Positions 15,445 through 19,686 of a DNA stretch of 64,000 nt are shown here, piece after piece. The position numbers and the translations under genes were made by a program. The stretch is taken from positions 558,001 through 622,000 of the forward strand of contig NC_007516.1 in NCBI RefSeq assembly GCF_000012625.1. Direction: 5' to 3'. The notes under the pieces are model-generated. The model ran no database searches and was not told where the DNA came from. It worked only from the letters and a program-made list of their open reading frames with translations. The number at the start of each line of letters is the position of its first letter. The first letter of the stretch is position 1. Source of the stretch: Synechococcus sp. CC9605 (GTDB lineage Bacteria; Cyanobacteriota; Cyanobacteriia; PCC-6307; Cyanobiaceae).

Positions 15445-16341
15445 TTGGCACAACCGTCTTGTCCCTTGCTGGCTTGGTTCGCGCTGATCTGGATGTTGGT
15501 TCCAGCCGCGGCTGCGCAGGGTTTTGATCAGTCGCTCGATGGTCTGGTTCGCCAACGGGTGATCACGTCCCAGGAGCGCAAGCTGCTCCGGGGCGGTGGC
15601 GTGGCGGTTCCCATGGAACGGAGCCGTTTCGAGGAGGCCTGTCGCACCGGTGCTCTGTCCCGGCAGGACTGCGCTTCCAGGGTGGCCAGGCGTTCGCCGG
15701 GGGCACCGGCTTCAGCACGGGTTCGCTTGATCCCCTCCCGCCAACCGTTGCGTGTTCCCGTGTCAGCGCTTCTCGCCCGCGATGGCGGCACCTTTCGGCT
15801 CGAATCCGTCTTTGCGGTCACGCCCCGTCCGCTGCCCGCCCCCGGCAATGGTGACCGTCAACTGCTCTTCCCGGTGGTTGGAGACGCTTTTAAAAGCAGT
15901 GGGTTTGGTTGGCGTCTGCATCCGATCCTGGGGAGCTGGCTGATGCATGCCGGGCGGGACTTTGCAGCACCGGAGGGCACGCCGGTGGTGGCTGCTCTTT
16001 CAGGGCAGGTCTTAAGCAGTGGTCTTGCCGGTGGCTATGGCGTCGCCATCGAACTGGAACACACCCAGCCTTTGCGCCGCACGCTCTATGGCCATCTCTC
16101 GGAGATCTATGTGCGACCCGGTCAGCCGGTGCGCCAGGGAGAGGTGATTGGCCGCGTCGGCAGCACAGGTCTCAGCACAGGGCCACACCTGCATTTCGAG
16201 TTGCGCACACCATTGCGGGCCGGTTGGCAGGCCGTTGATCCAGGGGATCTGGATCTTTCCGCCGTGATGCGTGCCAACAACGATCCTGTTTCGCTGCTGC
16301 TGGGCCAGGTGTTGCGCAGCCTTGAACGGGATCAGCCCTAG
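15445..16341 (+). CDS. M23-family (LytM) peptidase, exported
   Basis: A 298-residue protein with a signal peptide (hydrophobic LLAWFALIWMLVPAAAA, cleavage after AAA near residue 24). The C-terminal domain is M23: SGFGWRLHPILGSWLMHAGRDFAAPEGTPVVAA contains the first zinc ligands (His and Asp of HxxxD), and GPHLHFELRTPL contains the HxH pair. These enzymes cut peptidoglycan crosslinks or peptide stems. The stretch at about residues 25-75 is a separate helical region. Translation begins at TTG 15445. It lies on the other strand from the damaged two-component genes that follow. Confidence 0.9.
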   Translation: MAQPSCPLLAWFALIWMLVPAAAAQGFDQSLDGLVRQRVITSQERKLLRGGGVAVPMERSRFEEACRTGALSRQDCASRVARRSPGAPASARVRLIPSRQPLRVPVSALLARDGGTFRLESVFAVTPRPLPAPGNGDRQLLFPVVGDAFKSSGFGWRLHPILGSWLMHAGRDFAAPEGTPVVAALSGQVLSSGLAGGYGVAIELEHTQPLRRTLYGHLSEIYVRPGQPVRQGEVIGRVGSTGLSTGPHLHFELRTPLRAGWQAVDPGDLDLSAVMRANNDPVSLLLGQVLRSLERDQP

Positions 16342-16371
16342 CCCACAGCTACGTCGAGCGAAACAGAGACG

Positions 16372-16812
16372 TCAGTTCGTCTGTTCCCTGAGGATGAATC
16401 CAACACCGCGCACGGTGTGGATGAGGGTGGGCGCATCATCCAGTTCGACTTTTTGACGCAGGTAGCTGATATAGACGTCGAGAAGATTGTCGTCCCCACA
16501 AAAATTTTCTCCCCAAACACCGTGCATGATTTCCTGGCGTTCAAGCACGCGGCCTGCGCCCCGCATCAGGAAATTCAGCAGGTCGTATTCTTTCACCGAC
16601 AGTCGGATCGCACGATCTCCCCGCATCACATCCCGGGTTCGCGTGTTCATGCTGAGGTCGGCGACCTTGAGAATTTCGTTGACGTCTGGGCCGCCTACGA
16701 GGCCTGAGAATGTTTCAGCGCGGCGGTGCATTGCCCGCAGGCGCGCCATTAATTCGTCGATGGAAAATGGCTTGATCAGGTAATCATCAACGCCGGCTTC
16801 GAGAGCCTTGAC
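16372..16812 (-). pseudogene. OmpR-type response regulator remnant: receiver end and DNA-binding domain only
   Basis: Read on the minus strand this segment gives the end of a receiver domain, KALEAGVDDYLIKPF followed by SIDELMARLRAMHRR, and then a complete winged-helix output domain (AIRLSVKEYDLLNFLM, RVLERQEIMHGVWG, VDVYISYLRQK and TVRGVGFILRE). The phospho-acceptor Asp and the first roughly 85 residues of the receiver are missing. Upstream of V-K-A-L-E-A-G the frame turns into the antisense of a histidine kinase fragment. The full gene has therefore lost its 5' part near 16,812. An open frame does continue to 16,965, so a fused product cannot be excluded. Confidence 0.8.
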
Positions 16813-17076
16813 GCTCCTGTGGCTTCGGAGGATCTGGAACGCTGGTCTGCGCCGTTTGTCCGGGGCAAGCCCGAACGGGATGGCGAAAGGGTGGAGGGCC
16901 CTGGTTTGGGGCTCGCCTTGGCGCGCGAACTGGTGAGGGGGTGTGGAGGAACGCTGGAGCTCCACCAGAAGCCCTCATCGGAAGGAACCACCACGATTGT
17001 TCGGTTGCGACTGAAAGTCAGAACATCGAACGGGTCTGGAGCAGTTGTGGCAACTGTTCGAACAGATCCGGCTTGA
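16810..17076 (+). pseudogene. Histidine kinase remnant: C-terminal ATPase end only
   Basis: On the plus strand the frame reads PVASEDLERWSAPFVRG followed by a charged stretch and GPGLGLALARELVRGCGG, then LELHQKPSSEGTTTIVRLRL. This is the F-box/G2-box part of a HATPase_c domain. The dimerisation and phospho-His domain, the N-box and the first ATP-binding motifs are absent. The kinase sequence begins at about the same base where the response-regulator remnant on the other strand ends. The last 59 bases overlap the receiver gene on the minus strand. GTG at 16819 could start a short product, but it could not phosphorylate. Confidence 0.8.
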
Positions 17077-17404
17077 GCACGTAGGCCTCCGCTCCATTCG
17101 CCAGAGCTTCGTGTTTCTTGTCGGCGTCATTGAGAGCCGTCACGATGACCACCCTCAACGCAGGCTGGGAAGCGGCCTGGAGCTGCAGCTGTTTCAGGCA
17201 GGCCAAGCCGTCCATGCCGGGCAGCATCAAGTCCAGCAGCAGCAGATCGAAACGATCAGAGCCGGCTTCGTCGAGAAAGTCTTCTGCGGATCCGAAGCGG
17301 ATGCAGGTGTGCCCCTCATCGGTGATCTCAGCACTGATCAGCTGCTGGATGCGCGGGTCATCCTCCACGACTGCAACACGAAGAGCCTTGGGGGTCTCCT
17401 CCAT
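17018..17404 (-). CDS. Receiver-only response regulator
   Basis: A 128-residue single receiver domain beginning MEETPKALRVAVVEDDPRIQQLI. It has the acidic pair (EDD), the phospho-acceptor in LLLLDLMLPGMDGL, the Thr in VVIVTALNDADKK and the Lys in AEAYVLKPD. No output domain follows, so it would act by protein contact, as in CheY-like or phosphorelay regulators. The ATG at 17404 matches a normal receiver start; an open frame back to 17503 would overlap the ABC ATPase gene. Its 3' end faces the kinase remnant, so it may have been that kinase's partner (inference). Confidence 0.88.
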   Translation of the reverse strand: MEETPKALRVAVVEDDPRIQQLISAEITDEGHTCIRFGSAEDFLDEAGSDRFDLLLLDLMLPGMDGLACLKQLQLQAASQPALRVVIVTALNDADKKHEALANGAEAYVLKPDLFEQLPQLLQTRSMF

Positions 17405-17423
17405 TAGCGCAGGGGCACTGCAC

Positions 17424-18122
17424 TCATTGTGGGCATCCTGTGAGCGCTCGACCATCCTGGAAGCGAGCAATGCGTTGAGCTCGGGCCGCCACATCGTCTT
17501 CATGGGTCACCATCACCAGGGTGATGCCCTGTTGGTGGAGTTCATCAAACAGTTCCAGCACTTCGGCGGTGGTGTTGGAATCCAGGGCCCCTGTGGGTTC
17601 GTCCGCCAGCAGCAGACTGGGGCGGTTGATGATGGCCCGGGCGATGGCCACCCGTTGTTGCTGGCCTCCGGAGAGCTGATTGGGCTTGTTCTCCAAACGC
17701 TGCGCCAGACCAACGCGGCGCAGGGCCGATTGGGCCCGCTCGATCCGTTCCTCTCTGGGCACTCCCGCATAGATCATCGGGAGCATCACGTTCTCCATGG
17801 CGCTGGCGTGGCCGAGCAGATGGAACTGCTGAAAGACAAATCCGAGCGAGCGGTTGCGCACGTCGGCTAAGGCATCGTCATCCAACTGTTCAACGGCCAT
17901 GCCATTGAGCCGGTATGTCCCGCTGGTGGGCCGGTCGAGGCAGCCAAGGATGTTCATTGCCGTGCTCTTGCCTGAGCCGCTGGCCCCCATCACCGCCAGG
18001 TAATCCCCCTCTTGGACGGTGAGATTCAGTTGGTCAAGGGCTTTGACTTCGAGATCACCAGACCCATAGATCTTGCTGATCCCCTTGAGCTCAGCAACCG
18101 GCTGCTGCACAGCCTCAGCCAA
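17424..18122 (-). CDS. ABC transporter ATP-binding protein, MacB/LolD/DevA type
   Basis: A 232-residue ATPase subunit. Walker A is GASGSGKST, the signature motif is [14 protein letters not shown], and Walker B is [12 protein letters not shown], with the H-loop in [10 protein letters not shown]. The overall sequence, including [26 protein letters not shown], matches the MacB/LolD/DevA subgroup that works with FtsX-like permeases to export lipoproteins, glycolipids or peptides. No permease is next to it. TTG at 18122 overlaps ndhB by eight bases; GTG at 18110 is an alternative that removes the overlap. Confidence 0.9.
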
Positions 18123-19686
18123 GACCCTTCAGGCTGGACAGGGCTATGGCCTGCTGAAGCAATGGCGTTCCTGCAACAGCTGTATTGGCCCACTGGAACA
18201 GGGGATTGGAAAGGATTCCGCCAACTGCGGTAATCGCTACACATCCAATCAGGGCAACCCGAAGCGGCTGCATGCCCATCAACGACCAGTTCACGTCCGG
18301 ATAGGCCTTGACCACATCGGAGGCTTCCTGAGGCTCCTTCACCACCATCATCTTGATAACGGAGATGTAGTAATAGATCGACACCACGGAGGTGACCAGG
18401 CCAACCACTACCAGCAGATATTCGTGGTTCGCCCAACCGGCAAAGAACAGGTAGATCTTTCCGAAGAAACCCAGCATTGGCGGAATGCCACCCAGAGAAA
18501 GCAGGCAAAGACTCAGGCCTAGGGTGATCAGGGGATCCTTCTGGTAAAGCCCGGCGTAATCAGAGATTCGATCGCTTCCTGTGCGGATCGAGAAGAGGAT
18601 GATGCAGGCGAAGGCCCCCAGGTTCATGAATAGGTAGGCCGCCATGTACAGAACCATGGCCGCGAAACCGTCCTCGGTGCCGCAGACCATGCCGATCATC
18701 ACGAAGCCGGCCTGGCCGATCGAGCTGTAGGCCAGCATGCGCTTCATCGAGGTCTGGGCGAGGGCAACAACGTTGCCCAGGGTCATGCTCAACACCGCCA
18801 GAACGGTGAACAGCAATTTCCATTGATCGTCGAAGGCACCAAAGCAACCCACCAGGATGCGAAGAGCCAGAGCGAATCCGGCTGCTTTGGAACCCACTGA
18901 AAGGAACGCCACCACAGGGGTTGGTGAGCCTTCGTAGACGTCAGGCGTCCACTGGTGGAAGGGAACGGCTGCGATCTTGAATGCAACGGTGGCCAAGACG
19001 AACACCAGGGCCAAAGCAGCCAGAGGTGTGGTGCTGGTTTGGAGAGCCAGGCCGATGGTGTCGAGGCTGGTGCTGCCGCTTAGGCCGTACAGCAGGGAGG
19101 AGCCATAGAGGAAAACAGCAGCGGCTGCCGATCCCACGAGCAGATATTTGAGTGCTGCTTCCGAGCTGCGGGCATCCCGCTTCATGTAGCCCGACAGCAG
19201 ATAGCTGGCGACGGAGAGCGTCTCCAGCGAGATAAATACACTCACCAGATCCGTTGCCCCGCAGAGGAGCATGGCGCCGAGTGTTGCTGCGAGAAGGATG
19301 GCTGCGTACTCGCCAACGGGTGTGCCGCTCTTCACCGCGTAACGCCAGCTGATCAGCAGCGACAGAAGCGTGGAGAGTGCAATCACAGCCCGGAACGCCA
19401 CTGCCAAGTTGTCGGCGAGGAAGGCTCCAAGGAACGAGGGCTCCAGAGGTGCGTTCCACTGCAGGGCGAGTAGCACCAGGGAGGTGCCCAGGCCCGCATA
19501 GCAAATCGGCGGCACCCAACGTGTTGCGACCTTTTCGCCGGCCAGGTCCACCAAGAGGGTGGCGATCATCGCCAGCAGAACTGCCCCTTCTGGCAGTACG
19601 GCGGAGGCGTTGAGAGAGAGATTCAGCAGCTCACCAGGGGCAGCCGTGGCCTGGGTGGCGAGAAGGAAAGCACCCATGTCGGGCAT
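18115..19686 (-). CDS. ndhB: NAD(P)H-quinone oxidoreductase subunit 2 (NdhB)
   Basis: Antiporter-like membrane subunit of the photosynthetic NDH-1 complex, which takes electrons from ferredoxin to plastoquinone and pumps protons in respiration, cyclic flow and CO2 uptake. About 523 residues from [13 protein letters not shown]. It shows some fourteen hydrophobic helices, including the conserved [23 protein letters not shown] and the proton-channel region [26 protein letters not shown]. An upstream in-frame ATG at 19746 would add 20 residues, but the shorter start matches the family. topA diverges with a 111-bp gap that must hold both promoters. Confidence 0.95.

Follow-up and report, generated by a model that had tools for sequence, protein, structure and literature searches.

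Scar of a 1.7-kb deletion in a divergent regulator/kinase pair at a recurrently eroding locus of marine Synechococcus

The window studied here, i.e., the whole 64,000-nt stretch at bases 558,001-622,000 of the 2,510,659-bp genome of Synechococcus sp. CC9605 (label G000; one contig, rated 100% complete), holds the remains of a two-component system. We consider it very probable that a single deletion of about 1,702 bp in a divergent response regulator/histidine kinase pair left the scar seen at this site, that both remnants are probably dead, and that this is one of several independent losses within the genus. The deletion scar is authentic, and it lies at a locus that erodes recurrently; the type of event is already known, and the case is ordinary but well documented. 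The features around the junction are as follows.

15445..16341, plus strand: M23 peptidase, neighbour gene and left synteny anchor
16372..16812, minus strand: response-regulator remnant, equivalent to codons 97-242 of the 242-codon G021 regulator
16372..16965, minus strand: chimeric open frame of 197 codons with GTG start, antisense kinase followed by the regulator C-terminus
16802..16812, strand not given: deletion junction of 11 bp, matching the G023 kinase copy in 11/11 and the G021 regulator copy in 10/11 positions
16802..17076, plus strand: histidine kinase remnant, about codons 309-396 of 396
17018..17404, minus strand: receiver-only gene, 128 aa, with an ATG common to relatives
17424..18122, minus strand: ABC transporter ATPase, neighbour gene and right synteny anchor

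The kinase remnant and the receiver-only gene lie on opposite strands, and their 3' ends share 59 bp (17018-17076).

The ancestral locus and the deletion junction

The genus search comprised the window genome and 33 others; some DNA match was obtained in 33 of the 34, and stretches were taken from 30 relatives. We scored 27 genomes, again including the window's; G008 (no match), G015 and G017 (weak matches only), G014 (a stretch without the orthologous locus) as well as G009, G010, and G018 (contig breaks) were left unscored. An intact divergent pair, in which regulator and kinase are both matched over their full or nearly full length, lies between the same flanks in 11/27 genomes (G001, G004, G005, G007, G011, G021, G022, G025, G026, G030, G033; among these, G025, G026, and G033 are metagenome-assembled). 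The other 16/27 are damaged (G000, G002, G003, G006, G012, G013, G016, G019, G020, G023, G024, G027, G028, G029, G031, G032). None of the regulator matches of the 11 intact genomes contains a stop codon; for the kinase, the stop check of the search tool covers G001, G021, G022, and G030.

The gene order of the intact locus is exemplified by G021: M23 peptidase (plus), regulator of 242 aa (minus), 487 bp of intergenic sequence, kinase of 396 aa (plus), receiver (minus), and ABC ATPase (minus). That is, the receiver-only gene is the third member of the locus in intact relatives. The G021 regulator combines Response_reg and Trans_reg_C domains, while its kinase is composed of PAS, HisKA, and HATPase_c. 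Judging from domain content and position, the intact locus would provide a PAS-containing kinase that phosphorylates a PhoB-like regulator and perhaps also the receiver-only protein. With 487 bp, the divergent intergenic region of G021 is long (stretch L044, 2375-2861). An RNA element at the locus was rejected after an Rfam scan of L044, L006, and L051, where no family reached its gathering score. Beyond the genus, kinase matches with E-values of 1e-45 or better and 33-38% identity were observed in 8 genomes from a draw of 151 of the family.

When the window is aligned with six intact relatives (G021, G026, G030, G033, G022, G007), exactly two collinear blocks are found, which overlap by the 11 bases 16802-16812. 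In 6/6 of these comparisons, regulator homology reaches 16812 and kinase homology begins at 16802. The preliminary description of the site had noticed a regulator C-terminus (minus) meeting a kinase C-terminus (plus) near 16,812; this meeting point is real and the alignments place the junction at 16802-16812. It had also explained the arrangement by a single deletion that removed the promoters and both 5' parts of a divergent pair. Indeed, the loss of a single continuous stretch of about 1.7 kb accounts for the window: compared to the six intact relatives, 1,700-1,747 bp are missing, comprising regulator codons 1-96, the intergenic promoter region, and kinase codons 1-308. The longer, intact divergent pair is present at the same locus in related genomes, and no relatives were found among them that carry just the same short genes without a longer ancestor.

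The junction sequence (16802-16812) reads AGAGCCTTGAC. This is identical to the kinase copy of G023 (AGAGCCTTGAC) and agrees in 10/11 positions with the regulator copy of G021 (AGAGCTTTGAC). The kinase copy of G021 carries one further change, i.e., the two copies within G021 itself agree in 9/11 positions. The ancestral copies are 1,702 bp apart in 4/6 relatives, 1,747 bp in G033, and 1,700 bp in G007. The same short sequence (11 bp) is thus found at both ancestral ends and in a single copy at the junction, as a short-homology deletion predicts. For comparison, among the 843,448 regulator/kinase position pairs of G021, 10 have at least 10 of 11 bases in common and 164 have at least 9.

Two nearly identical 11-bp sequences, one within the regulator gene and the other within the kinase gene, most likely gave rise to the deletion through recombination that does not require RecA, i.e., by replication slippage or end joining. 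Such a single event of about 1,702 bp would take the 5' parts of both divergent genes together with their common promoter region. A phage origin was considered and rejected, given that positions 15500-18500 have no megablast match in phage records and that peptide patterns revealed no kinase relative in viral_contigs. The junction 30-mer has no match in viral_contigs.

Independent losses across the genus

The nearest relative of the window genome is G023, its sister on the flank tree (support 100/96), a placement that depends on the right-hand flank. G023 is damaged as well, with different deletion ends: it retains regulator codons 162-242 and the kinase from about codon 175, joined at CGGA. 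Regulator codons 97-161 are therefore present in G000 and lost in G023, while kinase codons 175-308 are present in G023 and lost in G000. Since these ends are non-nested, neither loss can have given rise to the other (barring restoration by transfer), and the two are separate events. Left of the junction, G000 is 95.1% identical to G012 (16000-16390) and 93.9% to G023 (16000-16614); on the right, the respective values are 94.7% for G012 and 97.0% for G023. G000 is thus slightly nearer to G012 on the left and nearer to G023 on the right, which makes local recombination possible.

Other deletion end points were found in G003, G012, G027/G028, G002, G013, G024, and G019. Eleven genome pairs were compared, which yielded nine distinct junctions with overlaps of 11, 4, 10, 6, 5, 7, 6, 7, and 10 bp. 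G028 seems to share the deletion of G027, with an overlap of 0 in the automatic alignment; for the junctions of G024 and G019, the reference was G020, which is itself damaged. G006, with 74-76% identity to its reference, shows no overlap and 101 unaligned bases. The comparison set leaves aside G016, G031, G032, and G029. As a background model, we placed artificial random deletions in intact loci. Here, with 400 draws in each of five donor/reference pairs, overlaps of at least 4 bp made up 9.5-17.5%. In sets of nine overlaps sampled from three such pairs combined, the mean reached the observed value in 0.0185% of the sets. The junctions do not provide a strict count of events, since larger deletions may overlie older small ones.

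On the flank tree (two flank genes, 28 rows, 8/25 inner branches weakly supported), 7 changes between the intact and the damaged state are needed, 6 of which are forced by well-supported branches. Such a count is silent on gain versus loss; the direction is given by the remnants. Given at least 6 forced changes and 4-11 bp of end homology at nine resolved junctions, we conclude that the erosion is recurrent. These numbers treat G020 as damaged, based on an in-frame stop in its regulator and a kinase match that extends only to residue 274; calling it intact would give 8 changes, 7 of them forced. G029 was counted as damaged too; neither M23 peptidase nor regulator, kinase, or receiver is detectable there, and it may never have had the pair.

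A partial state is visible in G006, G016, G031, and G032 (two tree groups), which retain the receiver and match the regulator over its full length, with the kinase absent at the locus. No full-length close kinase relative was found elsewhere in these four genomes, where the assemblies of G016, G031, and G032 are incomplete (77, 57, and 87%). Together with G020, these kinase-less genomes with a regulator indicate that the kinase was lost first in some lineages. G016 (L066) and G020 (L054) both show full-length regulator matches with a single in-frame stop codon each, which may be real or a sequencing error. The M23 peptidase is also truncated or missing in G003 (L052), G024 (L059), G027 (L060), G028 (L061), G013 (L067), and G019 (L072).

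We also looked for a second, relocated, or replacing copy. Within the window genome no close second copy was found. Identity is 25-31% for other kinases; for other regulators, it does not exceed 40% when whole proteins are compared and 44% when the comparison is limited to the C-terminal part. Such values would be expected of paralogs. Relocation of the kinase was rejected for 14 damaged genomes (G002, G003, G006, G012, G013, G016, G019, G023, G024, G027, G028, G029, G031, G032), in which no full-length close relative was found and, besides the remnants at the locus, identity is at most 34% among the matches listed. Relocation of the regulator found no support either: ten damaged genomes besides G000 show the G023 remnant and otherwise matches of at most 42%.

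State of the remnants and rival explanations

What is left of the regulator is its output half. The minus-strand frame 16372-16965 encodes an OmpR-type winged-helix C-terminus (Pfam Trans_reg_C, PF00486, 2.9e-24), and with profile positions 2-77 of 77 this output domain is complete. The DNA-binding half reported to survive by the preliminary description is thereby recovered. Lys110 is retained along with the DNA-binding domain. A receiver domain is not found in the regulator remnant, where Pfam reports Trans_reg_C only: codons 1-96 are gone, and with them Asp15/16, Asp60, and Thr88. The plus-strand frame 16819-17076 encodes a kinase C-terminus (HATPase_c profile positions 51-110 of 111, 4.5e-07) that retains the G2 box; neither H box nor N box is found in this remnant, since His160 and Asn275 lie within the deleted codons 1-308, and the PAS domain is gone as well. 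Given a regulator without phospho-acceptor Asp, a kinase without His and N box, and the loss of the promoter region, both remnants are probably dead and would presumably no longer be expressed.

Both remnants are still open frames. This is uninformative, since neutral simulations (substitutions only, no indels) often retain them: at 2, 5, and 8% change, the frame stays open in 81, 60, and 43% of regulator remnants and in 85, 69, and 54% of kinase remnants, respectively. The claim that reading frames remain open through the scar holds for the minus strand, where the frame runs far, but not for the kinase, where a stop 18 codons ahead of the junction region bounds the open frame and the first ATG/GTG/TTG is at 16819. 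The chimeric product proposed from it (antisense kinase plus regulator C-terminus) found no support. From its sequence, the 197-codon frame shows no sign of being a gene, and its openness is about what chance predicts for a young scar.

To assess constraint, we counted private changes within the remnant stretches that G000 and G023 have in common (80 regulator and 68 kinase codons). G000 and G023 show 8 nonsynonymous and 2 synonymous private changes, while five intact relatives have 21 and 36, respectively (Fisher p 0.016, based on ten changes that are mutually non-independent). For the regulator alone, 5 and 2 compare with 6 and 18 in intact relatives (p 0.067). The dN/dS between G000 and G023 is 0.17 for the regulator (intact pairs 0.01-0.07) and 0.07 for the receiver, while the kinase value of 0.37 stems from six differences and is inside the range of intact pairs (0.12-0.39), i.e., shows no relaxation signal. 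With regard to G021, dN/dS is below 1 for both genes of G000 (regulator 0.12, kinase 0.24), and much of this divergence may predate the loss. With small numbers, this suggests a relaxed regulator next to a receiver that would still be constrained at equal divergence. Two regulator changes, Y201C and R212S, are found only in G000 among 21 regulator sequences; the 20/20 others have an aromatic residue and Arg, respectively. An inactivating role of R212S is weakened by the Ser at this position in solved chains of PhoP (Gly in PrrA), both of which we take to be mycobacterial proteins, and the change by itself is no proof of lost DNA binding.

The receiver-only gene (17018-17404, minus), which had been described as a full gene adjoining the remnants, is indeed whole (Response_reg 1.5e-21 on frame 17018-17503) and retains the phospho-acceptor Asp, Thr, and Lys motifs. 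It is full-length or nearly full-length in several kinase-less genomes (G000, G023, G006, G031, G032). Since it is retained without the kinase and looks constrained in the comparison of G000 with G023, a different phosphate donor may serve it; if used, the protein would have to draw its phosphate from such a source. In the window strain, the kinase-regulator circuit would thus be cut, while the receiver-only gene has been kept and seems to remain in use.

A deletion scar could be mimicked by an assembly error: if the strain has an intact pair, 1.7 kb may have been collapsed during assembly between the ends that have the 11-bp word in common. A common word of this length is far too short to mislead normal shotgun overlap, which counts against such an error, and the genome forms one contig rated 100% complete. 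Moreover, relatives that were assembled independently have lost these genes through deletions of their own, with short homology at the ends, such that a misassembly is unlikely. The excess of private nonsynonymous changes in the G000 and G023 remnants also disagrees with it, albeit in small numbers. Altogether, we give this reading very little chance. Even less credible is that the short genes are ancestral and the long genes of the relatives are fusions or gains. No support for it was found, and it is already contradicted: the long forms contain all domains typical of two very large families and lie between the same flanks in 11/27 genomes on several tree branches, and the remnants match long-gene interiors, with the regulator cut inside its receiver domain. 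We thus consider its probability negligible.

If the deletion is accepted, the regulator remnant might still work as a phosphorylation-independent, free-running DNA-binding protein, made from the 197-codon chimeric frame or from an internal ATG. This would fit the complete winged-helix domain (PF00486 positions 2-77 of 77) and the frame that is open through the scar. The latter is expected by chance, though, and both promoter region and native start are gone. Furthermore, G023 lost part of what G000 retained, and Y201C and R212S are private changes at conserved positions, notwithstanding the Ser at the second one in solved PhoP chains. We therefore judge such activity to be very improbable. 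A bolder version holds that the pair was lost repeatedly because its loss is favored in open-ocean niches and that the receiver-less protein still binds the old targets, which would be regulatory rewiring instead of a dead gene; this, too, is a long shot. Loss by deletion with probably dead remnants is thus the reading we retain.

Meaning and comparison with known systems

The site provides a sequence-level case of marine Synechococcus shedding a sensory system, with the lineage states side by side: intact pair, regulator without kinase, both 5' halves gone, and everything gone. Close relatives that differ in state are material for testing the function of the kinase/regulator/receiver locus. 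Caution is advised with automatic annotation, where the two fragments may appear under the names of a response regulator and an ATPase-domain protein. In a literature search we noticed no papers on this exact locus.

With Response_reg and Trans_reg_C as well as PAS, HisKA, and HATPase_c in the intact relative, the pair resembles an OmpR/PhoB-family regulator with a PhoR-like kinase. It differs from the named systems of this type in that its scores reach none of the NCBIfam cut-offs shown (the 25 best of 98 and of 41 families), for which reason we assign it to no named system. PhoB was rejected with a score of 204.7 versus a cut-off of 296.2, and NblR, RpaB, and RppA were also below the NCBIfam cut-offs shown.

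A close parallel for the event is known from Streptococcus agalactiae ST260-261, where, according to passages of PMC3637634, repeats, most of them short, are found at indel ends and are attributed to RecA-independent recombination. Two-component systems are a main casualty there (13/21 inactivated, some in one sublineage only). Short repeats at deletion ends and two-component loss are what both cases have in common. In contrast, S. agalactiae is host-adapted, while we describe an oceanic cyanobacterium and one locus across a genus; furthermore, these passages do not state all 13 inactivations to be short-repeat losses.

Within marine picocyanobacteria, the part of PMC1906773 that deals with the phosphate pair SphS/SphR lists sphR as absent in CC9311, CC9902, and CCMP1375 and sphS as frame-shifted in MIT9313. 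As for our locus, regulator genes of a two-component pair are missing in some marine strains. SphS/SphR is, however, a different pair: the same part predicts sphS and sphR within one operon in CC9605, whereas the pair of the window is divergent and broken. Finally, low two-component gene numbers are given for the open-ocean Synechococcus clades II, III, and IV in the respective section of PMC2441476, whose Table 1 places CC9605 (complete genome, 2.51 Mb) in clade II. The scar can be seen as one concrete step of this reduction. That section reports gene counts and describes no scar or junction.
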